A stretch of 57,439 nucleotides of DNA from an uncultured Treponema sp. Lineage in GTDB: Bacteria > Spirochaetota > Spirochaetia > Treponematales > Treponemataceae. Both the position numbers and the translations under genes were made by a program. The notes beneath the pieces are model-generated. The model saw only the letters and a program-made list of their open reading frames with translations, was not told where the DNA came from and ran no database searches. The DNA is taken from contig CAMJZA010000015.1 in assembly GCA_946410085.1 (NCBI GenBank), forward strand, positions 1 through 57,439, given 5' to 3'. How positions within the stretch are numbered: position 1 is the stretch's first letter; each line of letters begins with the position of its first letter. Shown piece by piece: positions 36,432 to 49,641 of the stretch.

Positions 36432-39194
36432 ATGAAGCGGCTTTTCCTGTTCCTGTTCACCGGCCTGTTGCTCCTTACCCCTCTTGCTGCCCAGAAAAAA
36501 CTGGTGAAGGTTGCCTATTATCCCGAAAAGGGTTTTCAGGACTATGATCCGGCGACCGGCCTGTATTCGGGATACGGCTATGAATACCTGCTTGCCGTCA
36601 AGCAGTATGCGGACTGGGATTTTGAATTCCTGCGGATGGACGGGGTTGATGAAGCCCTGCGCCTGCTTGCGGAAGGTTCCGCCGACCTTATAGCCGGAGT
36701 GACCTGCAGTGCGCCGCATGATGCCTTCCTTGCGTTTTCGGAGCGGAGCATGATGAGCGCTTCCAGGCAGCTCGTTGCGAATCCTGCCAGAAGCCGCTTT
36801 TCCTACGGAGATTACAAGAGTTTTGCCGGAATGCGGATCGGCATTGCAATTGCCTCGTCCGGGGATGACTGGCTGCAGACGCTCAGGAATTTCCGCGCCT
36901 ATGCGTCCGATCACGGCTTCCACCCGGAAATCGTTTCCTTTCGGACTGAGGAGGACTGTGAAGCAGCCCTGCGTGCGGGCAATGTGGATGCCATACTGAA
37001 GGACAGCTACGAGCGCAACGACTTCTACGTCATCGCCGACTACGAGTTTGAAGACCTGCATTTTGCGGTCCGCCGGGATGACACCGGCCTGCTTGAGGAA
37101 CTTGACAAGGCAATGGCGGAAATCGATAAGGTCATACCGACCTTTCGGGCAAGCCTCCTGCGGCACTACTACAGCAAGGACGTGCAGGTTACCTTTGCCC
37201 CCAGTTTTGACGAAACGGTCTTCCTCTCGTCCTGGAAGTCCTACAAGGTCGGCTGCACCCGCTCCTGGTTCCCGCTGGGCTATTTTGAAGGTGACCGTTT
37301 CTGCGGGCCGCTTGCCGACGTGTACTTCAAGATAAGCCAGCGGACGGGACTCCGCTTTCAGTATGTTCCCTTTGACTCCTATGCCGACATGCTGACAGCC
37401 TTTGCCTACGGCGACGTTGACATCCTGTGCGAGATGCCCTTCGATTTCCGCTATGCGGAACGCTATAAGGCGAGCATTTCGCGGGAAATGGCTTCCATGA
37501 GCATCCTCAAGGTGACCCGCAATTTTTCTTCCGAGCTGGACGGAACCCGTCTGCCGGTCTGCGCGGGGCTTCCGCACACCTACACCGGAGAGCTGGTCCG
37601 CATGACCTACGGCGACAGCTACAGCTATAAAACCTGTCCGGCGGTGAAGGACTGCATTGAAGCCGTCATGTCGGGCGATGCCGACGTTGCCTATCTGACC
37701 GCATATCAGCTTGCCGCCTACCAGTCAAATCCCAAGTACATCTCGCTTTCCTTTACGGTCATGCCGGAACTGCAGTATTCAATCTGCATCGGGGTCAGGA
37801 ATACCTGTGACCCCCGCCTGATTTCCGTCCTCTCCAAGGGACTGGATCTGATAGGGCTTGATCAGATCAATGAGCTGTTCCGCGCTTCCGTGCAGAACGA
37901 AGATTTCAGCATCCTGTCCTTCTTCTACCGCTATCCCGTGCTCTTTGCCATTGTCATCATCATGCTTGCCTTCGTGTTCTTCGGCATTCCGATGACAATC
38001 ATGTACCTGCTGATCCTGAACCGCAAGAACCGGGACCTGTACCGGGCGAACAACGCAAAGTCGGAATTCCTGAGCAAGATGAGCCACGACATCCGTACGC
38101 CGCTCAACGGCATCCTCGGCATGACCTATCTGGCGAAGGCGGAACGGGATCATGCCAAGCTCGGCGAGTATCTGGACAAGATAAGCCTGAGCGGACGCTT
38201 CCTGCTCAGTCTGGTCAACAACATACTGGACATGAGCAAAATCGGCAAGAAGGACTTTGAACTGCATCCTGAGCCGTATCCGGTCGAAGAATTCCGCTCC
38301 TACATCGGGGCGATCATCGGGCCCCTCTGCGCCAAGAAGGGGCTGGCGCTCATCATTGACAACCTTGAGCTGGATGACGCCTTCCTCGTGGACCGGCTCA
38401 GGTTCAATCAGGTGTTCGTCAACCTGCTCTCAAATTCCGTCAAGTACACCGAGTCGGGCGGTCATATCCACCTCTGCTATGCAAATGTGGCTGTCTTTAA
38501 CCACATCTTTATCGGGGACATCATTGTCGAAGACAACGGCATCGGCATGAGCGAGGAATTCCAGAAGAAGATGTTCGAGCCCTTCACGCAGGAAAAGGAT
38601 ACGATGGCGAACATGGGAAGCGGTCTGGGGCTTGCAATCGTTAAGCAGCTGGTCGAGTCCATGGGCGGTTCCATCCGGGTGGAAAGCAAGTCCGGCAAGG
38701 GCTCGCGCTTCATCGTCAGCATGGCGCTGGAGCTGGTGCCCTATGAGAAGCAGCCTGCCGAGCCAGAGCAGAGCGAGGCAGACATACTCAAGGGGCTCCA
38801 CGTCATGATGTGCGAGGACAACGAGATAAATGCCGAAATCGCGGTGGAACTGCTGAAGCGGCGGGAAATAACTGTTGATGTTGCGGAGAACGGTGCGGCC
38901 GGGGTGGAGCTGTTCAGTAAGAGTGAAGTCGGCTACTACGATGCCATCCTTATGGATATCCGCATGCCGGTCATGGACGGCTTTGAAGCCGCTGCGCAGA
39001 TTCAGAAGCTGAACCGCGACGATGCAAAAGTGGTGCCGATTATCGCGCTGACGGCCGACGCCTACCTGCAGGATGAAGAGAAGTCGTCAAGCTGCGGCAT
39101 GGTTGCGCATATCGCCAAGCCCGTCAACGCCGACATCCTGTATGCGACGCTTGCCCGCTGCATCACGAAGCAGAAGCAGCTTTCCGCCCCGTAA
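36432..39194 (+). CDS. Hybrid sensor histidine kinase with two periplasmic binding domains
   Basis: 920 residues. Signal peptide (LFLFLFTGLLLLTPLAAQ), two tandem SBP_bac_3 domains outside the membrane (about 22-255 and 262-490), one helix (about 500-528), HisKA (His552 in KMSHDIRTPLNGILGM), HATPase (NLLSNSVKYTE, GSGLGLAIV) and a receiver domain with Asp842 (ILMDIRMPVMDGFEA). This is BvgS/EvgS-like architecture: amino acids or similar small ligands bound outside would steer an internal phosphorelay. No HPt domain is fused and no partner regulator is adjacent, so the output protein lies elsewhere. Confidence 0.94.
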   Translation: MKRLFLFLFTGLLLLTPLAAQKKLVKVAYYPEKGFQDYDPATGLYSGYGYEYLLAVKQYADWDFEFLRMDGVDEALRLLAEGSADLIAGVTCSAPHDAFLAFSERSMMSASRQLVANPARSRFSYGDYKSFAGMRIGIAIASSGDDWLQTLRNFRAYASDHGFHPEIVSFRTEEDCEAALRAGNVDAILKDSYERNDFYVIADYEFEDLHFAVRRDDTGLLEELDKAMAEIDKVIPTFRASLLRHYYSKDVQVTFAPSFDETVFLSSWKSYKVGCTRSWFPLGYFEGDRFCGPLADVYFKISQRTGLRFQYVPFDSYADMLTAFAYGDVDILCEMPFDFRYAERYKASISREMASMSILKVTRNFSSELDGTRLPVCAGLPHTYTGELVRMTYGDSYSYKTCPAVKDCIEAVMSGDADVAYLTAYQLAAYQSNPKYISLSFTVMPELQYSICIGVRNTCDPRLISVLSKGLDLIGLDQINELFRASVQNEDFSILSFFYRYPVLFAIVIIMLAFVFFGIPMTIMYLLILNRKNRDLYRANNAKSEFLSKMSHDIRTPLNGILGMTYLAKAERDHAKLGEYLDKISLSGRFLLSLVNNILDMSKIGKKDFELHPEPYPVEEFRSYIGAIIGPLCAKKGLALIIDNLELDDAFLVDRLRFNQVFVNLLSNSVKYTESGGHIHLCYANVAVFNHIFIGDIIVEDNGIGMSEEFQKKMFEPFTQEKDTMANMGSGLGLAIVKQLVESMGGSIRVESKSGKGSRFIVSMALELVPYEKQPAEPEQSEADILKGLHVMMCEDNEINAEIAVELLKRREITVDVAENGAAGVELFSKSEVGYYDAILMDIRMPVMDGFEAAAQIQKLNRDDAKVVPIIALTADAYLQDEEKSSSCGMVAHIAKPVNADILYATLARCITKQKQLSAP

Positions 39195-39697: not shown

Positions 39698-41734
39698 CTA
39701 CTTGGATGTCGCCTTCCACACGCCCTGCCAGTCTGCGGGCGGAGACGCAAGCAGCTCCCCGCACTTTTCCGCGTAGAAAGCGGCGGGCGGGTCCTTTTCT
39801 TTCGTCGACTCAAAGACGGCCTTTGCTTCCGCGAACTTTCCTTCATAGAACAGCTCGCGGCCCCGGTCAAAGTTTTCGATCAGCTCCTTCCTTGCAGCGA
39901 ATGTTTCTTCCGACATCGGTTCAAAGACCGTGACGGCCTCCTTCTTGCCGACGACGGCAACACGGGCGAGTTCGCGGAAGCGGAGCGTGCAGCCGTGGGC
40001 GAGTGCGCTTTCCATCGTCGCCCGGGAACACATCGTATAGGTTCCGAACTGCTTGTTCAGTCCTTCAAGGCGGGACGCGAGGTTGACGCTGTCGCCGAGC
40101 ATCGTGTAGTCAAAGCGGTTGGAAGACCCCATGTTGCCGACGACTGCATGCCCGGTGTTCATGCCGATCCGCTGGTAAAAATGTTTGCCGGTCATCTTGT
40201 GCAGGTCGGTCCGCAGTTCATCGAGCCGCTTCTGGCATTCCATTGCTGCCGCCAGAACCCGGGCGGCATGGTCTTCCTGATCCGCCGGTGCGTTCCAGAA
40301 TGCGATGATCGCATCACCTTCGTATTTGTCAATCGTACCGCCAGACTCAAGGATGATGGAACTCATCTCGGACAGGTAGAGGTTCAGCACCTCGGTCAGT
40401 TTGGTCGGGTTCTTGGCAAGGCTTTCGGAGATGCTCGTAAAGCCCTGTACGTCCGAGAAGAAGATGCTGATTTCCCGCTCTTCGCCGCCGAGCCGCAGGC
40501 TGTCCGGGTTGCTTATCAGCTGGTCAATGACTGCCGGGCTCAGGTACTGGGAGAATGCCGCCTTGATGAAGCGCTTCTGCCGGCCTTCGAGCATGTAGGT
40601 CAGTGCGAGCTGAATCAGAAAGGAGAATGAGAAGCTGGCAAGCGGGGCAACGAGCAGGATGTACCAGCCCGTGACAAAGAGGGCGAAGGAACCGCCCGTT
40701 ATGAGGACCAGCCCCAGCATAATGCTGCCGATTGCGGTCAGGATGTTGCCCAGCGTGCTTTTCCGGGCTTCGGTAACGGCGATGGCAAGGATGCCCAGAA
40801 TGCTTGCCAGCACGATCCATGCGATGGAAAGCGGTTCCGGGACCGTGCGCATGAAGTCGTTTGAAAGGAAGTTGTCAAGTTCGGTGATGTGGACGCCGCA
40901 GCCCGGGTAGACCTGCGAAAGCGGCGACGAACAGATATCGAACAGGCCGGGCGCATAGTAGGCGTAGTAGACGTATGCCCCGGTAAAGCACTCCGGCGGA
41001 ATGAGCGGTTCCCTGCCCGCAATGTAGTCGTAGTAGCTCTGGAGTACGTCCGAAGCCCGGTAGGGATTGTAGACGTCCAGGCTGGACCGGTAGCGCAGGA
41101 GGAAGGTTTCTCCCTTTTCGACGGGGTGGGAAGCCTTTATCTCGTCAATCGTCATGCCGGAGATGACGAGGGGGGCGACACCGAGCGACGGGTACTCGCC
41201 GTCATCGCCCTTAAACGAAATCCTGCCCCGCCGCATGACGTCGTCGCTGTCCTTCGCGCTGACCGTGCTGCCGATGACGCCCGCGCTCCTGCGGATCGGG
41301 TCAACGGGGAAAATCAGGTCGTCCGAGGAAGTGGAAGCATCGTCTGCGTACATGGCATGGACGACCCTGCCGTAGTCTTCGCATGCGGCGGCAAAGGCTT
41401 TGTCGTCGTCGTCTCCGTAGACTGACGGCTCGGTAAAGAGGACATCAAATGCGATCGCTTCGGCTTCGCCGATCTGCATGTACTTTACGATGTCGCCGAG
41501 CGCCGCCCGGGGCCAGGGCCAGCCCCAGCCCATTTCCCGCCGCGCCCAGTTGATGCTTTCCTGATCGACGGTGATGAAGCAGATGTCCTGCGAGGGATAG
41601 CTGTAGGACGAAGCGAACTTGGTCCGGCTGTCAAAGGTCTTGTTTTCCAGGAATGAAAAGAGCCCTGAAAAATGGAGGAGGGTAACGGCAAGGGATACGC
41701 CGGCCACGATCAGGATGGAACGGAGCTGCTTCAT
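39698..41734 (-). CDS. CHASE2-domain adenylate cyclase
   Basis: 678 residues from ATG 41734, just after the protease gene's stop. N-terminal helix, CHASE2 extracytoplasmic sensor (about 30-320), three closely spaced helices (about 322-400) and a class III cyclase catalytic domain (about 440-600). Metal-binding Asp residues are in FFSDVQGFT and YEGDAIIAFW; the ATP-type Lys is in TIDKYEGD; transition-state Asn/Arg are in SVNLASRLEGL. It should make cAMP in response to an unknown external signal. The C-terminal tail contains a TPR-like segment (FDRGRELFYEGKFAEAKAVFE) also found at the end of the symporter-cyclase protein at 44004. Last gene of SH3-M48-cyclase. Confidence 0.94.
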   Translation of the reverse strand: MKQLRSILIVAGVSLAVTLLHFSGLFSFLENKTFDSRTKFASSYSYPSQDICFITVDQESINWARREMGWGWPWPRAALGDIVKYMQIGEAEAIAFDVLFTEPSVYGDDDDKAFAAACEDYGRVVHAMYADDASTSSDDLIFPVDPIRRSAGVIGSTVSAKDSDDVMRRGRISFKGDDGEYPSLGVAPLVISGMTIDEIKASHPVEKGETFLLRYRSSLDVYNPYRASDVLQSYYDYIAGREPLIPPECFTGAYVYYAYYAPGLFDICSSPLSQVYPGCGVHITELDNFLSNDFMRTVPEPLSIAWIVLASILGILAIAVTEARKSTLGNILTAIGSIMLGLVLITGGSFALFVTGWYILLVAPLASFSFSFLIQLALTYMLEGRQKRFIKAAFSQYLSPAVIDQLISNPDSLRLGGEEREISIFFSDVQGFTSISESLAKNPTKLTEVLNLYLSEMSSIILESGGTIDKYEGDAIIAFWNAPADQEDHAARVLAAAMECQKRLDELRTDLHKMTGKHFYQRIGMNTGHAVVGNMGSSNRFDYTMLGDSVNLASRLEGLNKQFGTYTMCSRATMESALAHGCTLRFRELARVAVVGKKEAVTVFEPMSEETFAARKELIENFDRGRELFYEGKFAEAKAVFESTKEKDPPAAFYAEKCGELLASPPADWQGVWKATSK

Positions 41735-41735
41735 C

Positions 41736-42623
41736 TTACAGCTTCCCCTGTACGTCCGTGAAGCGCTTTTCCCGCTCCTGCCGCTCATAGCTGCCCTTGT
41801 ATTTTTTGAGCTCGCCCTTTATGTTCTTCATGCGGGATTCTGCGCTCGGATGGTTTTTGCAGAATCCAGCGGTCTGGCCCGCTTCCTTTTCTTTCAGGAG
41901 GGAAAGCATCTCCTGCATGGCGGCCGGATCGTAGCCTGCGCCGTCCAGCAGCGCGAGGGCCGTCTTGTCTGCCTGAAACTCCTGCGTCTTGGAGTAGCCC
42001 GAGTTGACCAGCTGCTTTACCATGCCGTCAACGTCAACGCCCAGGTCGTTCAGCAGCTGTGAACTGCTGCTGCCGCTGTCTTCAAACGCCTTGACCAGTT
42101 CGCCCGTCGTCCGGCTGGATTTAATGGCCTTGACGCTGTGGCCCAGCTGGATGTGGGCGACCTCGTGGGCGATGACCGCTGCGAGCGCATCCTCGTCTCC
42201 TGCACATTCCAGAAGGCCCCGCGTCACGAGGATGTGGCCGCCCGGCGAGGAAATGGCGTTTACCTCGGGAGTGTCCAGTATGCCGACAAAGTAGCCCTTG
42301 TAGAGCAGGGGCATGTCGGAAGCCTGCGTCAGTGCTGCACAGATTTTGTTCACGTATGCCGTCGCATCCCTGTCTTCATACAGGCGGTAGTGTTCCAGTA
42401 CCGTCCCCGCGACGGCCCGGCCGATGTAGTACTGCTGTTCCGGCGTAATGTCTTCTGCAATGACGGCGATGGAACCGGTGGCCTTGGAAATGCTGCTTTC
42501 CATGCTCTGGGCTGAACCGGCCACCTTCCTGAGCGTGTCGAGTCCTGCCGGGAAGGCCGCCGTCTGGACGAGGGCTGCGAGCAGGGCAGCCCCGATGAAG
42601 CTCTGCCTGCACGTCCGCATCAT
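41736..42623 (-). CDS. M48-family zinc metalloprotease
   Basis: 295 residues. Signal peptide (SFIGAALLAALVQTAAFPAG) and zinc site HEVAHIQLGH with His153, Glu154, His157; a third ligand Glu is likely in QEFQADKTALALL. Similar to BepA/YggG- and LoiP-type periplasmic proteases that degrade damaged outer-membrane proteins. No C-terminal TPR block as in BepA. It overlaps the SH3 gene by 4 bases and is followed by the cyclase gene, so the three are co-expressed. Confidence 0.92.
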   Translation of the reverse strand: MMRTCRQSFIGAALLAALVQTAAFPAGLDTLRKVAGSAQSMESSISKATGSIAVIAEDITPEQQYYIGRAVAGTVLEHYRLYEDRDATAYVNKICAALTQASDMPLLYKGYFVGILDTPEVNAISSPGGHILVTRGLLECAGDEDALAAVIAHEVAHIQLGHSVKAIKSSRTTGELVKAFEDSGSSSSQLLNDLGVDVDGMVKQLVNSGYSKTQEFQADKTALALLDGAGYDPAAMQEMLSLLKEKEAGQTAGFCKNHPSAESRMKNIKGELKKYKGSYERQEREKRFTDVQGKL

Positions 42624-43081
42624 TCAGCCTCCTTGAGCTTGCCTTCCCTGACGAATGCTTCGACGTCGGCCTCCGGGACCGCATTGCCTTCGACGGCGTC
42701 AACGGCCGCAAAGTCCGAGTTCCAGTCATCGGTCTGCCGGGTGTCAAGGCCTTCTGCGAAGCCCTTTCCGGCCAGCGAAATCTCGTTCGCGTCGGTCTTG
42801 ACGGCCTTTCCGGCGACAATCTTGCGCTTGGACAGGGCAGAGGAATTGACCCAGCCCGTGACGGAGGGATTGGATTTGGGAGTAACCTGGGTCCATTTGC
42901 CGGATTCCTTGACGACCGTAAGCTCATCGCCGTAGCTGACCGTCATGAGGGTCCTGGATGTGCCGGATGCCTTTTCCTTGACGGCAAGCGACTGAACTGA
43001 AACGTAGCGTGAGGCCCCGGCCGCAAACGCTGCAAGGGAAAGTCCTGCCAGCAGCAGGAACGTCAAAAACCTTTTTGCCAT
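42620..43081 (-). CDS. Secreted SH3b-domain protein
   Basis: 153 residues. Signal peptide (FLTFLLLAGLSLAAFAAG) and one bacterial SH3 domain (about 25-85: YVSVQSLAVKEKASG...VSYGDELTVVKESGKWTQV...GWVNSSAL). Such domains often bind peptidoglycan or protein stems. The acidic C-terminus has no recognised domain. GGAGG precedes the ATG. Encoded with the M48 protease, it may recruit or regulate it in the periplasm. Confidence 0.88.
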   Translation of the reverse strand: MAKRFLTFLLLAGLSLAAFAAGASRYVSVQSLAVKEKASGTSRTLMTVSYGDELTVVKESGKWTQVTPKSNPSVTGWVNSSALSKRKIVAGKAVKTDANEISLAGKGFAEGLDTRQTDDWNSDFAAVDAVEGNAVPEADVEAFVREGKLKEAE

Positions 43082-43109
43082 AAAAATGCCTCCATATTAC
43101 CTGAAAAGT

Positions 43110-43138
43110 ATTATAGAGGGCTTTTTATCCCTTTGCAA
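43110..43138 (-). promoter_or_regulatory. SH3-M48-cyclase operon promoter
   Basis: On the minus strand: TTGCAA (43138-43133), 17-base spacer, perfect TATAAT (43115-43110). A ~20-base leader with TGGAGG follows, i.e. a normal leader. Confidence 0.8.
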
Positions 43139-43240
43139 GTGTCGGCAGGAAAGCTAAGAAAAGTCTTATGCGGGGGAGGGCAGGGGCGTCCCCTGCTGCA
43201 GCGGCGGTCCGGCACTGAGCCGGAATGCCGTCTGACCGGC

Positions 43241-44023
43241 CTAGTCCTTGAGCTTTTCGGGGCAGACAGCCTTGACGAGGGCGCGGGCGAGGATTTTCGT
43301 GGGGTCAATTTTCGTTATCGGCATGCGGAGGCGGCCCATCGCGAGGGGGATTTCGGTACAGCCCATGATGAAGCTATCGTAGCCCCGGGAGAGCATCTTT
43401 TCCGTTACGAGGCGGAAGTTCTCGACTGCCTGCTCGTGGATCGGGTTGGAAACCGCCTTGATGCCGTATTCCCGGCTGTAGATGGCGTCCCAGATGAGTT
43501 TCTGATCCGCCTCGTCCGGTTCAATGATCTGATATTCGCCGTCAGGGTCAAAAAACGTATGGTAGACGCCCGAGTAGTAGGTTCCCTGGGTCGCATACAG
43601 GACGATTTTTTTTGACGCAACGTTTTCACGCACCCACCTGTAGGTCTCTTCGACGATGTGCATCAGCGTTACGTCCAGCCCGTTGATTTCGATGAAGCGC
43701 CGCACCTGATTCATGATGATCGGGGAGTGGGCGGTGTTGCAGGGAATTGCGATGTGCGTTGCCCCCAGACCGGCAAGCTGCTGTATCACGTGTTCAATGC
43801 CCGTGCAGGGGTTTTCCGAATCGGGGTGCATGATGTAGTAGGTGCGGTCGGGAATCAGGCGGGAGGCCGAAATCATCATGACGTCGGGGTAGTCCTGATC
43901 GCTTGTGGCATTGACGCAGTCAAATACCTTCCGCTCCAGATCCATGCCGGCATAGGGACCCATGCCGCCCACTATGCCGATTGCCTTGCAGCTTTTCAGC
44001 GTACTACTTTTTGTCGAATGCAT
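43241..44023 (-). CDS. Aspartate/glutamate racemase family protein
   Basis: 260 residues from ATG 44023 (GGAA 8 bases upstream; a GTG at 44029 is possible). GIVGGMGPYAG at the start, first catalytic Cys95 in AIPCNTAH and second Cys222 in IMGCTEIPLAM: the two-cysteine, cofactor-free mechanism that interconverts L- and D-aspartate or glutamate. Its 5' end overlaps the end of the symporter-cyclase gene, so they are translated together. D-amino acids could be made for the cell wall or be part of the sensed pool; substrate choice is not decidable from sequence. Confidence 0.92.
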   Translation of the reverse strand: MHSTKSSTLKSCKAIGIVGGMGPYAGMDLERKVFDCVNATSDQDYPDVMMISASRLIPDRTYYIMHPDSENPCTGIEHVIQQLAGLGATHIAIPCNTAHSPIIMNQVRRFIEINGLDVTLMHIVEETYRWVRENVASKKIVLYATQGTYYSGVYHTFFDPDGEYQIIEPDEADQKLIWDAIYSREYGIKAVSNPIHEQAVENFRLVTEKMLSRGYDSFIMGCTEIPLAMGRLRMPITKIDPTKILARALVKAVCPEKLKD

Positions 44024-47000
44024 AGACACCGTTCCAGTTTTCCGGCGGATTGAGCTTAAAGCCTTCCGCCCGTTCCTTGATGACTTCCGCAGCCTTGTCG
44101 TTCAGGCGGCGGATAACTGCGGACATGTACTTGATGCAGTTGTCCCAGTCACCGTCAAAGTAATACTTGAGGCCCTTCTCGTAGCCCCGGTAAACCTTGA
44201 GGATATTCTGGTCCAGCTTGCCCTTTTCGGCGAGCAGTTCATAGATGTAGAGGGGCTGCGTCTTGCCCTTGACCGTAATTTTATCCAGAATGCGGAACTC
44301 AAAGTCCTCCTTGACGAGGTCGTGGGTCACCGCACTGATGATGATTTCCGTACCGTAGTACTTGTTGATTCCTTCCAGACGGCTTGCGAGGTTGACGTTG
44401 TCGCCGAGGACCGTGTAGTTGATTCTCTCATCGGAACCCATGTTGCCCACGACGACCTCGCCCGTATGGATGCCGAAGCGGGTGCGGAACTTGGGCTTGC
44501 CTTCGCGGATCCAGGCGTTGGACAGGTTGAATCCCTGCATCTGGCAGGTGAGGGCAGAGCGGCAGGCGAGGGTGGCGTGCAGCTTCGTGTCCATCTCCAC
44601 TGGTGCGCCCCAGAATGCCATGATCGAGTCGCCGATGTACTTGTCTATCGTACCCCGGTTGCCCGAAATCGTGTGGGCAAAGAGGGAGAAGTAGTCGTAG
44701 AGGCGGTTTACGAGGTCTTCCGGCCTGGTCTTTTCGGAAATGCCCGTGAAGTTTTCGATGTCGGAGAACATGAGGGTGAGGGTCTGCTTCTTGCCGCCGA
44801 TTTCCGCCCGCTGGCTGTTCCGTATGAGCTGGGTAACCAGGTCGGAGGGGACGTATTTCTTGAAGTTCATCAGACCCTGCTTCATGCCCTGGAAGGATTC
44901 GACCATGTTGTCGATTTCCTTGATGCCGGAGTCCGTCATGATGACGCCGTCGTCAATCGCCAGTTCCTTGATGTTGTTCATCTCGGTGGAAAGGGTCTTC
45001 ATGGGCTTGGATATAATCGAAGACACCAGCACGGAGATGATGATTGCCGCGATGATGACGATGAGTGATATGATGAGGACCGTCCGGTTGTTCTTGTACA
45101 CGATGCCCATGATGTCGTTGTCGGGAATGACCATGCCGACGTTCATCGACAGTTCTTCATCGAGCGGCATGGAGTCAATCTTGCTGAAGTAATTCTTGCC
45201 TTCATGCTTGAATGAGTAGATGCCTTCGGTATTCACCTTGCCCCGGCTGTTCTCGAATGCCTCGGCGATGACGGGATCTGCCCGGTCGTCAACCTTCTTC
45301 ATCGTGAAGGTGTTGCTGCCGTCGGCAGAAGGATAGACGTTGAGCAGGATGTCGATCGGGTCTCCCGGCTTGAGCGGCTTGGCGATGATCTGATTGTCCT
45401 GATCATAGATGAAGAGCTTTGAGTTTTCGGTCGTCGAGATGTTTGCCAGATAGAGCGAGAGGTCCCGGATGCCGATGTCAATGCAGGCAACGCCCATCAG
45501 GATGCCGTCTTCATCGTAGATGGGGGAGGCACAGGAGAAGCCCGGCATGTTGTCGGTTGCAAAGATGTAGACGTTCGTCCAGGTGGTCTTCCGTTTTTCA
45601 ACGGCCTTCTTGTACCAGCCGCGCGTGCGGGGGTCATAGCCGCTTTCCAGGCTTTCTTCCGTCGTCGGGAAGGTTGCATTGTACTGCTTGTTCTCGTGGA
45701 CGTAGCGGGTAATGACCGACGAACTGGTCCGGTTGATGTAGCGCCGCGTCAGCGTACCGTCCGGCATGCGGCGGCCCATGATGAGGTTGCCTTCGGTGTC
45801 GCCGAAGTAGACCATGGCGAACTCGCTGTGCGTCTGCAGCAGTTCCATGAAGTAGTCCAGGGCCTTTTCCTTGTCTGCCCTGAAACCGAACTTGTCTTCA
45901 TTCCAGTAGTGGAATGCGATGTTGTGGATTGCCTGATCGGCAGGCGTATAGTAGGCTTCCAGCTTGGTGTCGACCGACTTGAGGATTTCCGTGACGAGCT
46001 TGGTCGAAACGGAATAGACGGAGTCCTGGGTACCGTGCGAGTTTATCCGCATGATGATGGCGGCGGTCGCAACGAGCAGCAGCGTGTTCAGGAGGACGAG
46101 GGCATCCCGGATCCTGATTTTCATGCCCTTGGCATGAGCTGCCGGGGCGGCAGTCTGCTGGCCGCCTGTCCTGACGGGAACCGTCCGCACGGGCTCGCGG
46201 GCCATGACTGCGGCACTGCTTGCGGCGGCCGCTGCCTGCGTGTCGCCGACTGCCTGAGGCAGGACGACCGGTTCCGGACGCTCCTGCTGTGCCGGTTCGA
46301 GGGTAAAGATGTCGCTGCCTTCTGCCGCCGCTTCCCGCAGGCGGGCATTGGCGGCCCGGTCTGCTTCCGTCTCCTTGGGGGCGACGAGGGCCGTCGTTGC
46401 GATGTTCATGTAGACGATCAGCAGGGTCCGCATGGGGTCAATGAGGGAGTCAATCGCCATGAACACGACGAGGATGGATTCAACCGGCAGGCCGATCGGA
46501 TCCAGTATGAGGGAAATCATCGGCAGGGTCAGAAGGCCCGAGGCGCCCGCGGTCGCCGTTCCGGCGAGGAGCGAGCCGATGACGATGAGCAGGAGGGAAG
46601 AGGGCGGCAGGCTTGCATTGTACACCTGAGCGACGAAGCAGGAGGCGAGCGCGAAGTACATGATGTTGCCGAAGCGCAGGACCGTCAGGCCGAGCGGGAA
46701 CACGAGGTCTACCATGTTTTCGCCGAAGCCCAGGCCCTTGAGCGCGGAAATCGATGAGGGCATGGCGGCAAAGCTGTTCCGCGTTGCAAAACAGATGATG
46801 ATCGGATCCATCACCTTTTTCATGACGGCAGCAGGGTTTCTGTTGCCGGACTTTATCCAGATGATGACGGAACAGACGAGCATGGCAACAAGGCCCGCTA
46901 TGTAGAAGATGACGATGAATTTGACCATCGCCAGCAGGATTTCGACGCCGACCTGGGCTATCTGCTTGCCCATCAGGAATACGAGGCCGATGGGAAGTCC

Positions 47001-47627
47001 GTACATCGTCCAGTTTATGAGCTTCTGGAAGGAGTCCTTGAGCGACATGACCCCGTGTATGAGGCTTGCCGACATGTCCTCCTTGAGGAAACCGATGGCA
47101 ATGCCAAATATAATCGAGAAGAAGACGAGCTGCAGGATCGAGCCGTTGCTGAACGAGGTAAAGATATTGGACGGAATGATGTTGACGAAGAAGTCGACGA
47201 GCGATGATTTGCCCGCGCTCTGGTCCTGCGAGGGATCGTACAAGGCCATCTCGTCCTTGCTGGTGTCGGCGGAAGACTTGATTATCTTGTCAAGGACTGC
47301 CGTCGTTGCGTCTCCCAGGTCCTTGCCCGGCCGGGCGAGGGTACCCGCCAGCGTACCGAAGACCGACGTTACGGCGAGCATGATGAGGAAGACGATGAGG
47401 ATTTTCGCGATGTGCGAGCGGGCGTTTGCGTCCTTCATCAGCTGGGCAAGGCTTGCGATGATGGAGGTGACGAGGATCGGAATGACCGTCATCTGAAAGA
47501 GGTTCAGGTAGACGTCGCCGATGATGCCCCAGGAGAGGGCCATGTCTTTCGCATAGAAGCCGAACAGGATGCCGAGGACTACGGAAAAAAGAATGGTGAC
47601 GGGGTTTTTGAGTATCTTGCCAATCAT
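44004..47627 (-). CDS. DAACS symporter fused to Cache-HAMP-adenylate cyclase
   Basis: 1207 residues. Residues 1-420: dicarboxylate/amino acid:cation symporter fold (GltP/DctA family), opening with NPVTILFSVVLGILFGFYAK. Then an Ala/Pro/Glu linker (about 420-500), a helix (about 505-527), a dCache-type sensor (about 530-830; SGYDPRTRGWYKKA, GVACIDIGI), a helix (about 835-860), HAMP (about 862-920) and a class III cyclase (about 935-1110) with metal Asp in FSDIENFT and YIGDSIMAFW, Lys in TIDKYIGD and Asn/Arg in NVNLASRLEG. It should make cAMP. The transporter's sodium-site motifs are changed (LRFGN at 317-321; I404 and N408). An internal ATG at 46124 (codon 502) could give the cyclase alone. It follows the binding-protein gene by 12 bases. 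Confidence 0.93.
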   Translation of the reverse strand: MIGKILKNPVTILFSVVLGILFGFYAKDMALSWGIIGDVYLNLFQMTVIPILVTSIIASLAQLMKDANARSHIAKILIVFLIMLAVTSVFGTLAGTLARPGKDLGDATTAVLDKIIKSSADTSKDEMALYDPSQDQSAGKSSLVDFFVNIIPSNIFTSFSNGSILQLVFFSIIFGIAIGFLKEDMSASLIHGVMSLKDSFQKLINWTMYGLPIGLVFLMGKQIAQVGVEILLAMVKFIVIFYIAGLVAMLVCSVIIWIKSGNRNPAAVMKKVMDPIIICFATRNSFAAMPSSISALKGLGFGENMVDLVFPLGLTVLRFGNIMYFALASCFVAQVYNASLPPSSLLLIVIGSLLAGTATAGASGLLTLPMISLILDPIGLPVESILVVFMAIDSLIDPMRTLLIVYMNIATTALVAPKETEADRAANARLREAAAEGSDIFTLEPAQQERPEPVVLPQAVGDTQAAAAASSAAVMAREPVRTVPVRTGGQQTAAPAAHAKGMKIRIRDALVLLNTLLLVATAAIIMRINSHGTQDSVYSVSTKLVTEILKSVDTKLEAYYTPADQAIHNIAFHYWNEDKFGFRADKEKALDYFMELLQTHSEFAMVYFGDTEGNLIMGRRMPDGTLTRRYINRTSSSVITRYVHENKQYNATFPTTEESLESGYDPRTRGWYKKAVEKRKTTWTNVYIFATDNMPGFSCASPIYDEDGILMGVACIDIGIRDLSLYLANISTTENSKLFIYDQDNQIIAKPLKPGDPIDILLNVYPSADGSNTFTMKKVDDRADPVIAEAFENSRGKVNTEGIYSFKHEGKNYFSKIDSMPLDEELSMNVGMVIPDNDIMGIVYKNNRTVLIISLIVIIAAIIISVLVSSIISKPMKTLSTEMNNIKELAIDDGVIMTDSGIKEIDNMVESFQGMKQGLMNFKKYVPSDLVTQLIRNSQRAEIGGKKQTLTLMFSDIENFTGISEKTRPEDLVNRLYDYFSLFAHTISGNRGTIDKYIGDSIMAFWGAPVEMDTKLHATLACRSALTCQMQGFNLSNAWIREGKPKFRTRFGIHTGEVVVGNMGSDERINYTVLGDNVNLASRLEGINKYYGTEIIISAVTHDLVKEDFEFRILDKITVKGKTQPLYIYELLAEKGKLDQNILKVYRGYEKGLKYYFDGDWDNCIKYMSAVIRRLNDKAAEVIKERAEGFKLNPPENWNGVYAFDKK

Positions 47628-47639
47628 GCTGTTTTTCTC

Positions 47640-48455
47640 CTACTGTCCTGAATACTTTTTGAGCACTTCGTCTGCCGTCATCGTGGGCTGGTGTTCCAGG
47701 AATATGTTGACCCAGTAGAGCAGCTGGGTGTTCTCGGTTTTGACCGCGACGGCAATCGGATCCGTCAGGTCAGTGAAGTAAATGGGCTTGAACAGAAGGG
47801 CGCTGTTGGGGATGGACGCAAGGACTTTCTTGATTTCCAGTTCGTCCCGGTACACGGAGAGGACCTCTCCATTTGTCAGCGCCTGGACGGCTGCGTCCCA
47901 GGTGGGATACTCCTTTATTGTTGCGGCCGGAAAGTTTTCCTTTGCATAGTTTGCGTATGACGAGTTCGCAATGACCCCGAGCGTTCCCGTATAGTTCCTG
48001 ACGAACTTGTTGATTTCTCCTTCGCTTGCAACCTTGGCGAGCTGGAGGCGGTTGAACAGGATGCCCTGCTTGAAGGTCATGTAGGGGGTAGAAAACTTGA
48101 TGAAGCGTGAGCGGGAAAGGGTGCGGCTCAGCTTTGAGACCGCAAGGTCCGCCTTTCCCGTCGAAACGAGCGTAACGAGGTCGTTGAAGGCGGGGGCGTC
48201 GCGGGTAATGACGAGCCTGACGCCGAGTTCTTCGGCCATTTTTGTTGCAAGGTCTATGTCGTAGCCGACAAGTTTTCCTTCCTTATTGACAAAATAGAAG
48301 GGGGGCTGGTCAACGGCCGTGATGGCGACTTTCAGTTCTCCTTTATTGATGATCGTTGCCATGTCGCCCTGTATGCCGTTTCCCTGAGCGGCGGCGGGCA
48401 GAAAAAAAGAGAGCGACAGTAGTAAAACTGCGGTCACGTGGCGCATGAACTTCAT
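47640..48455 (-). CDS. Amino-acid-type periplasmic binding protein (SBP family 3)
   Basis: 271 residues from ATG 48455 with AAGGAG 7-8 bases upstream; upstream in-frame starts are rejected. Signal peptide VTAVLLLSLSFFLPAAAQ, no lipobox, so free in the periplasm. Family 3 solute-binding fold: KGELKVAITAVDQPPFYFVNKEGKLVGYDIDLA is split over the first lobe, with FNDLVTLVSTGKADLAVSKLS. These bind polar amino acids. No ABC permease or ATPase follows; the symporter-cyclase gene comes next, so it may deliver ligand to that sensor. Confidence 0.93.
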   Translation of the reverse strand: MKFMRHVTAVLLLSLSFFLPAAAQGNGIQGDMATIINKGELKVAITAVDQPPFYFVNKEGKLVGYDIDLATKMAEELGVRLVITRDAPAFNDLVTLVSTGKADLAVSKLSRTLSRSRFIKFSTPYMTFKQGILFNRLQLAKVASEGEINKFVRNYTGTLGVIANSSYANYAKENFPAATIKEYPTWDAAVQALTNGEVLSVYRDELEIKKVLASIPNSALLFKPIYFTDLTDPIAVAVKTENTQLLYWVNIFLEHQPTMTADEVLKKYSGQ

Positions 48456-48588
48456 AAGAGACTCCTTATCAAGTTTATCGGCCGTTTTTATGAATTCTAT
48501 GTGAAAATAACATACTGGAACGCTGAGAAGTTTGTCCTGCATGCCGGAAAAGCTGTTTTTGGGGACGGGACAGCTTGTTTGGGACAGC

Positions 48589-48652
48589 AAAATAACTTAT
48601 TTTTGTCAGCAAAATAAGTTATTTTTGCCGGAAAAACAACTTATTTTTGCCG
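48589..48652. repeat. AT-rich palindromic repeats (three units)
   Basis: AAAATAACTTATTTT (48589-48603) and AAAATAAGTTATTTT (48611-48625) are complementary over 15 bp and each is itself near-palindromic; a third variant (AACAACTTATTTTT) ends near 48648. They lie between two minus-strand genes in a GC-rich genome. The long stem plus T-runs could terminate the TPM gene transcript. Confidence 0.75.
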
Positions 48653-48699
48653 GCCGGACAGCTTTCTGCTGTTTTGTTCTGTCTGGCCGGCTGTTTTTG

Positions 48700-49641
48700 T
48701 CAGAAACCGTGGCCGCCGCCGCCGCCGGAATGGCCGCCGCCACCGCCTGAGTGATGGCTGCCGCCGCTGCCCCGGGAGGAACTTTCGATAATTCGCTTGG
48801 TGAGCCTGCCGGGCGTAACGGAAATGCCTGCGAGCGTCCCCTTAAAGACCGGATCGGCCTTGGGCTGTCCCTTTTCGTCGTCGGTCTTGGGGCTGCGCTC
48901 CATGTAGATGTAGCAGATGAGGAGGGCGAGCGTGAGGGCGAGCAGGTAGTTGCTTGCGTGCTTCATCGGCTGCCGTATTTTCCCGCCGGCGAGCAGGGTG
49001 TTCATCTGCCTGAATGCTTCGACTGCACAGCTATAGTAGTCCCCGCTGCCTGCCATCCGGTAGATGTTGTCCGTAATGCTCTGGGCATAGTCTGCCGTGA
49101 TGGTCTGGTATACGGTTCCGTCGCTGTGGATTTCCAGCCTGCGCCGGTACATGTCTATGAGGAAGATGCTGCCGCTTGCCCCGTGGCCGAAGAGCTCTTC
49201 GTAGATGGTCGCCGCAAGGTCTTGGGCAGAGGAGCCCCGGTCCGTATTGCTGGAGCAGAAGATGGCGTTTCCCCATTCCGTTAGGGGAAGCATCTCGTCC
49301 AGAAGGAGCTGCTCATCCGCATCGGTCAGGAGGTCTGCCTGGTCGAGCACGGCAGCGGTGTAGCCGGTCTCTTCGTTCGTGTAGCCGTTGACGGCGGACA
49401 GTGATGCCGCTTCTGTCTGGGCAGGACCGGCGTCCCCGCCTGCAAGATAGCCGGATCCGGCCGCATCGTAGTCAGCTTCATAGTAATCGTCTGCTTCTTC
49501 GCCGGAGCCGTCTCCCATCGGGATAAGCGCATCGTCCTGCGCCGCAAGGGGGGCAAGGGCCAGGCAGAGTGCTGCAAGCAGGATGCCGCTTTTCTGCAGT
49601 ATGTTCATCAATCGCATTGCTTTCGTCCGTATCACTTTCAT
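48700..49641 (-). CDS. TPM-domain membrane protein (YgcG-like)
   Basis: 313 residues. Signal peptide (ILLAALCLALAPLAAQ), acidic/Gly/Tyr-rich segment (about 35-85), TPM domain (about 90-215: VLDQADLLTDADEQLLLDEM...IFLIDMYRRRLEIHSDG), one helix (about 232-250), then a cytoplasmic tail ending in a Gly/His/Ser-rich stretch (SGGSHHSGGGGGHSGGGGGHGF). This layout is typical of bacterial TPM/YgcG proteins, of unknown function, some proposed to assist membrane-protein turnover. ATG 49641 is 2 bases after the zinc-ribbon gene; the two form an operon. Confidence 0.88.
   Translation of the reverse strand: MKVIRTKAMRLMNILQKSGILLAALCLALAPLAAQDDALIPMGDGSGEEADDYYEADYDAAGSGYLAGGDAGPAQTEAASLSAVNGYTNEETGYTAAVLDQADLLTDADEQLLLDEMLPLTEWGNAIFCSSNTDRGSSAQDLAATIYEELFGHGASGSIFLIDMYRRRLEIHSDGTVYQTITADYAQSITDNIYRMAGSGDYYSCAVEAFRQMNTLLAGGKIRQPMKHASNYLLALTLALLICYIYMERSPKTDDEKGQPKADPVFKGTLAGISVTPGRLTKRIIESSSRGSGGSHHSGGGGGHSGGGGGHGF

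Follow-up and report, generated by a model that had tools for sequence, protein, structure and literature searches.

Two kinds of protein that combine transport with signalling are already known, namely transporters that act as co-sensors and transceptors. In the DctA-DctB-DctS system of Bacillus subtilis and the DctA-DcuS pair of E. coli, a DAACS/SDF transporter, an accessory receptor and a membrane sensor cooperate, the transporter being a co-sensor, and DctA has been proposed as the activity switch of DcuS (PMC6978683). Fusions of a transporter with a receptor are rare, and the worked examples, such as Pseudomonas CbrA (SLC5-STAC-histidine kinase; PMC13022988) and Ks-Amt5 (PMC5764959), join other folds (SLC5, Amt) to kinases.

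We have analyzed a stretch of 57,439 nucleotides from an uncultured Treponema sp. (contig CAMJZA010000015.1; hereafter, the window), in which a single gene encodes an SDF domain, a Cache sensor and a class III cyclase. The sequence-only reading that pointed to this gene knew of no described cyclase of the GltP/DctA type, and our search of the open-access literature likewise retrieved no described SDF-cyclase. As far as that search reached, neither an SDF-Cache-cyclase protein nor a subfamily-wide loss of the Na+ motif nor the conserved operon of four modules has been described. If the interpretation given below is true, the glutamate-transporter fold joins the list of transporter-receptors, with cAMP as the output.

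The fusion gene and its operon

The gene is the middle one of a tight operon, whose order is SBP, SDF-Cache-cyclase, racemase:

47640..48455, minus strand: amino-acid-type solute-binding protein, SBP_bac_3 (Pfam E 3e-22; PDB matches)
44004..47627, minus strand: SDF-dCache-HAMP-like-class III cyclase fusion gene, 1207 aa (Pfam; genus survey)
43241..44029, minus strand: Asp/Glu-family racemase (Pfam PF01177; PDB 1jfl; NCBIfam TIGR00035 above cut-off)

The fusion is read as one stop-free frame of 1207 codons from position 47627 down to 44004, and stops are present when 44004-47627 is read on the plus strand. The uninterrupted frame reported in the sequence-only reading, which left the strand unstated, is thus borne out on the minus strand. 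The fusion is encoded in 20 of the 196 genomes of the genus (67-94% identity); 15 of these 20 carry it whole, in one stop-free frame, and the others end at contig ends. A scan of the contigs of close relatives gave 22 named fusion loci, all independent assemblies (Treponema, Spirochaetaceae and Spirochaetales MAGs) and, by their titles, mostly of rumen origin. Whole-genome searches, which covered Spirochaetota, revealed that SDF and cyclase are also fused in a second genus of the same family (G224, G245 and G257). How widely this exact architecture occurs had been left to a survey; besides the genus, it is now found in further Spirochaetota lineages. No NCBIfam equivalog matched the fusion above its cut-off.

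An assembly error or a frameshift at the junction had been named as the finding that would undo the fusion. Since at least 15 genomes, assembled independently, carry full-length stop-free frames, both are ruled out, and we conclude that the fusion is real, due neither to chance nor to misassembly. Read from the most similar pairs (dS is saturated at larger distances), dN/dS is 0.05-0.07 for the SDF half and ca. 0.045 for the HAMP-cyclase half, indicating strong purifying selection on both.

The SBP gene lies on the same strand, 12 nt upstream of the fusion gene. Its product matches amino-acid binding proteins, and the usual Arg and Asp positions, which we take to be those with a role in such proteins, are visible in the alignment. 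The fusion gene overlaps at its 3′ end with the racemase gene. The racemase, whose closest solved relative is the aspartate racemase 1jfl, has the two catalytic cysteine motifs (PCNTAH and GCTE); the NCBIfam model for cysteate racemase matched it below cut-off. In relatives, a binding-protein gene stands beside the SDF gene wherever the contig reaches. Where the two halves are unfused, a separate Cache-cyclase gene is located directly downstream of the SDF gene in most cases, and a racemase gene is nearby in most. Conservation of the operon reaches across the order and into a second class of Spirochaetota. What is observed, then, is a conserved SBP/SDF/Cache-cyclase/racemase system and not a single odd gene, and the operon partners and separate-gene relatives, which the sequence-only reading missed, argue most strongly for a joint function of the parts. 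Scanning positions 43000-49000 for promoters and terminators gave counts within the range of shuffled sequences and set no operon limits.

Further genes of interest are found around the operon. It is followed by CHASE2-cyclase, M48 peptidase and SH3 genes (window 39698-43081), in an order shared with locus L056, and a hybrid histidine kinase with a periplasmic SBP_bac_3-type sensor region is encoded near it (window 36432-39194). At another locus, L172:3-3924 (plus strand), a dCache-HAMP-histidine kinase and a response-regulator-like frame directly precede a canonical SDF gene, forming a kinase version of the SDF/sensor arrangement.

Domains of the fusion protein

The N-terminal half contains the following features:

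46380..47597, minus strand: SDF (GltPh/DctA-fold) domain, residues 11-416 (Pfam PF00375, E 1e-71; PDB; AlphaFold/Foldseek)
46665..46679, minus strand: TM7 motif L317-R-F-G-N321, in place of the NMDGT Na+ motif (Arg318, Gly320 and Asn321 invariant in 22 of 22)
46404..46451, minus strand: TM8 stretch D393...D397-P-M-R400-T401...I404...N408 (residues mapped to GltPh)

The Pfam SDF match scores 242 bits against a cut-off of 27.9, and sequence matches in the PDB are GltPh, GltTk and 9bgz. The family's hairpins and broken TM7 are seen in an AlphaFold model of the domain (mean pLDDT 74); Foldseek aligns this model to the same three structures with TM-scores of 0.7-0.8, the top PDB matches being 9bgz, 9bgy and GltPh. 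The best match by both sequence and fold is 9bgz, an ancestral uncoupled aspartate transporter.

In the GltPh family, Na+ is coordinated by N310, D312, T92, S93 and D405, M311 ligates Na2, and the amino group and side-chain carboxylate of aspartate are bound by D394 and R397 (PMC5110648, PMC8431971, PMC12668577). Using the PDB alignment to transfer GltPh numbering, we compared these positions in 22 aligned members of the SDF subfamily. In all 22, M311 is replaced by Arg, T314 by Asn and D405 by Asn. D312 is replaced by Phe (Ile in one member), T92 by Met or other non-Thr residues (Ser in one), S93 by hydrophobic residues, N310 by Leu, Gly or Ala, and N401 by Ile or Leu (Asn is kept in one). 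The equivalents of D390, D394, R397 and T398 are invariant in all 22; the TM8 stretch of our protein accordingly keeps these four and lacks those of N401 and D405. Canonical SDF proteins readable from related genomes retain NMDGT, with one exception, NMDGV; several control rows read in a wrong frame were left out of this comparison. One canonical SDF that keeps NMDG, L174:2313-3959 (plus strand), has an extra N-terminal domain of ca. 135 aa without a Pfam match.

Judged by this mapping, the cation-binding side chains are lost, the substrate site is partly kept, and an invariant Arg would lie near both the substrate and Na2. Since the Na+-binding side chains are replaced throughout the subfamily, cation-coupled uptake of the kind known for GltPh, EAATs and GltP is not to be assumed. 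The DAACS-family fold assigned in the sequence-only reading holds, with an SDF match above the family cut-off and a GltPh-like model; its label "symporter" does not, NMDGT and the Na+-ligating residues being replaced in 22 of 22 members (the sole exception is the one Ser at T92). Na+-coupled symport by the SDF half is unlikely, and a receptor for acidic amino acids, or a Na+-independent transporter acting as a co-sensor, appears likelier to fit these residues than a Na+ symporter. The TM7 Arg may substitute for a cation, by analogy with the Lys in the Na2 site of CbrA (PMC13022988). An invariant Met-to-Arg change within a Na+-coupling motif would be a direct case of the loss of ion coupling.

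CbrA lacks a Na+ site and yet transports, so the loss of the site is no proof that transport is lost. The SDF half could be a working Na+-independent transporter, proton-coupled or uncoupled, that reports its turnover or occupancy to the built-in cyclase, a possibility that we consider real but rather doubtful. It would account for a full fold under purifying selection, it has a precedent in CbrA, where Lys fills the Na2 site of an active transporter, and it agrees with the best structural match being an uncoupled aspartate transporter and with the downstream racemase, which suggests that an amino acid enters the cell. It fits poorly with the loss of N401, which ranks among the best-conserved substrate residues, with Asn at T314, and with the absence of both acidic residues, D312 and D405. 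Because the substrate pocket is altered (T314 to Asn, N401 to Ile or Leu), the ligand might be something other than Asp or Glu.

The C-terminal half contains four features:

45081..46049, minus strand: periplasmic dCache sensor, approximately residues 527-849, between two TM helices (Pfam, PDB, AlphaFold)
45477..45638, minus strand: Cache amino-acid motif Y664, R669, W671, Y672, Y687, D717 (alignment to the PctA motif)
44853..45008, minus strand: HAMP-like helical segment after TM2, approximately residues 874-925 (AlphaFold helices; Pfam HAMP in 6 of 26 homologues)
44226..44792, minus strand: class III (IIIb-like) nucleotidyl cyclase domain, residues 946-1134 (Pfam, PDB, motif residues)

In the GltPh topology the C-terminus of the SDF domain is cytoplasmic. 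This places the linker in the cytoplasm, the Cache domain in the periplasm and the cyclase in the cytoplasm, which is a consistent arrangement. Pfam matches to dCache_1 (residues 656-760) and MCP-like_PDC_1 (642-723) are above the gathering score. The motif of amino-acid-binding dCache_1AA domains (Y121, R126, W128, Y129, Y144 and D173 in PctA; PMC10104139) is present in full and conserved in homologues; its second aromatic residue is Phe in one fusion from family f5 (see below). Solved relatives of the domain are amino-acid chemoreceptors, and we predict that it is an amino-acid sensor. A GepA match (NCBIfam) to the Cache half was below cut-off.

An AlphaFold model of residues 497-1207 (mean pLDDT 81) consists of a helix shared by the first TM segment and the Cache domain, the Cache strands, TM2, helices at the HAMP position, the cyclase fold and, at the C-terminus, a helical tail. 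The Guanylate_cyc match (residues 947-1124) is above the gathering score, and the closest solved relatives of the domain are CyaB and CyaC. Residues D956, K996, D1000, T1072, N1079 and R1083 are present and are invariant in 26 homologues. In this family, a Lys/Thr pair is characteristic of class IIIb and of specificity for adenylate, and cyclic AMP is therefore the predicted product of the enzyme half. With ten matches to the cNMP_binding domain, the genome plausibly encodes cAMP effectors as well.

Much of the domain assignment made from the sequence is upheld. Pfam finds SDF, dCache_1 and Guanylate_cyc above gathering score; the Cache sensor has, in addition, its full motif, and the cyclase residues claimed (two Asp for the metals, Lys and Thr for the substrate, Asn and Arg for the transition state) are in place. 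The proposed link to amino acids is strengthened by the neighbouring SBP and racemase and by the Cache motif. HAMP is weakly supported: helices are modelled where it is expected, and Pfam HAMP is undetected in this protein.

Linker, and separate or fused genes in relatives

The two halves are joined by a segment with little conservation of either sequence or length:

46119..46373, minus strand: variable cytoplasmic linker, residues 419-503, including Met502 (alignment of homologues)

In the nearest genomes, the separate cyclase genes start at the position of Met502; their products begin MKIKIRDAL, compared with MKIRIRDAL at residue 502 of the fusion. This match raises the question of whether a separate cyclase is made from an internal start at Met502. 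No Shine-Dalgarno-like sequence was seen by eye before this codon, several fused homologues have Ile or Phe in place of Met502, and an internal start was rejected on these grounds. Given also the full-length stop-free frames in at least 15 genomes, we consider it very improbable that the gene reflects an assembly error or yields two proteins.

Other genomes present the modules in several states of separation. G227 and G272 have separate SDF and cyclase genes that overlap by 4 nt. In f5, another family of the order, many genomes carry SBP, SDF, Cache-cyclase and racemase genes side by side, and in two (G393 and G414) SDF and cyclase are fused; in another class of Spirochaetota (G470 and G480) the modules are separate genes. 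L115 and L117 have the cyclase within the cluster without adjoining the SDF gene, and L091, L114 and L116 have SBP and SDF genes with no cyclase nearby. A separate-gene version of this SDF subfamily was not found among the sampled genomes of the genus.

On the SDF tree, which includes the diverged G656 row as a very long branch, the fused state requires three changes, also when only the starred branches are trusted, and lineages with adjacent but separate SDF and cyclase genes flank the fused ones. The simplest reading is three independent gains of the fusion; one gain with two losses is an alternative that the same count formally permits. Such a natural series of separate, overlapping and fused genes is suited to asking how the occupancy of a transporter by its ligand is conveyed to an enzyme.

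Most separate SDF proteins of f5 have a C-terminal extension of ca. 100-200 aa (among others, L112:7323-9083, minus strand; L120:6167-7972, plus; L109:4422-6290, plus). It is predicted to be cytoplasmic and, in the three tested, resembles one half of SBP_bac_3, at Pfam E values (2e-4 to 2e-3) that fall short of the gathering score. In L117:5459-7192 (minus strand), the SDF extension instead aligns with the C-terminal region of the cyclase protein at 38% identity over 109 aa and is perhaps a relic of an earlier fusion.

G656 encodes an intact SDF of the subfamily near a 1235-aa protein composed of a strongly diverged SDF-like domain (Pfam E 2e-16), Cache and cyclase. A fusion of this kind close to an intact SDF gene (L157:2772-6479, minus strand) suggests a heteromeric assembly or a duplicated docking module. 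The SDF domain might be a membrane docking or assembly module only, with Cache as the sole sensor and contact with SDF setting the basal state of the cyclase, much as proposed for DctA and DcuS. The second, strongly diverged SDF-like domain in G656 speaks for this, as does the finding that DcuS switching is independent of the transport activity of DctA (PMC6978683); a pure scaffold, however, has no need of invariant D390, D394, R397 and T398 equivalents, and we regard this explanation as improbable.

Proposed working and known systems

We favour, with a probability of about 0.5, a fused receptor cyclase resembling DctA-DctB-DctS, in which SDF is a co-sensor and cAMP the output. Its computed basis is the fusion and its repeated occurrence, the conserved operon, the residues lost and retained in SDF, the cyclase residues, the Cache motif and the cNMP-binding proteins. 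The SBP would capture an amino acid, probably an acidic one (Asp, Glu or an analogue) and perhaps both stereoisomers, given the racemase, and hand it over to the SDF module. SDF would bind the ligand through the kept TM8 Asp and Arg without Na+, the invariant TM7 Arg standing where the canonical family has the Na2-ligating Met, and would serve mainly as a co-sensor, not a pump. The dCache domain would independently bind an amino acid through its Y-R-W-Y-Y-D motif. TM2 and the HAMP-like helices would relay both inputs to the class IIIb cyclase, setting how it dimerises and how active it is. Finally, cAMP would act through the cNMP-binding proteins of the cell, and the racemase would handle the amino acid. 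The identity of the ligand, docking of the SBP, independence of Na+, loss of net transport and the direction of the cAMP response are the steps of this scheme that we infer. The scheme suggests signalling from amino acids to cAMP in abundant, mostly uncultured rumen spirochaetes.

We propose more tentatively that the protein represents a new class of receptor, an SLC1 fold without cation coupling or net transport, fed by an SBP and with an invariant Arg replacing Na+, that controls a cyclase together with a second sensor. Against a receptor stand the weakly supported HAMP, the loci that have SBP and SDF without a nearby cyclase, and the mismatch in symmetry between an SDF fold that forms trimers and a cyclase that forms dimers. 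The mismatch is a real puzzle, one that has been noted for Ks-Amt5 too (PMC5764959).

Compared with GltPh, GltTk and 9bgz/9bh0 (PMC12668577), the Treponema SDF shares the fold from end to end and the equivalents of D390, D394, R397 and T398; it differs in lacking NMDGT and the equivalents of T92, S93, N310, D312, D405 and N401, in having Arg at the position of Met311, and in its fused sensor and cyclase. With PctA-type dCache receptors it has in common the amino-acid motif Y, R, W, Y, Y, D, whereas its output is a cyclase and an SDF domain precedes the N-terminal TM.

As in CbrA and Ks-Amt5, a transporter domain and a signalling output reside in a single polypeptide. CbrA is similar in that its transporter is N-terminal and has a basic residue at the Na2 site; it differs in its LeuT fold, kinase output, lack of a periplasmic Cache domain and proven transport of histidine (PMC13022988). 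In Ks-Amt5, too, a trimeric transporter fold has become a sensor and is joined to an output domain that is normally a dimer, but this protein has the Amt fold and a kinase, and is an ammonium sensor with a measured loss of transport (PMC5764959). As in DctA-DctB-DctS, a DAACS protein, an accessory receptor and a membrane sensor are encoded together. In Treponema, however, sensor and SDF domain form one polypeptide, the binding protein is of the SBP_bac_3 type, the SDF lacks the Na+ motif, and the output is a cyclase in place of a histidine kinase.
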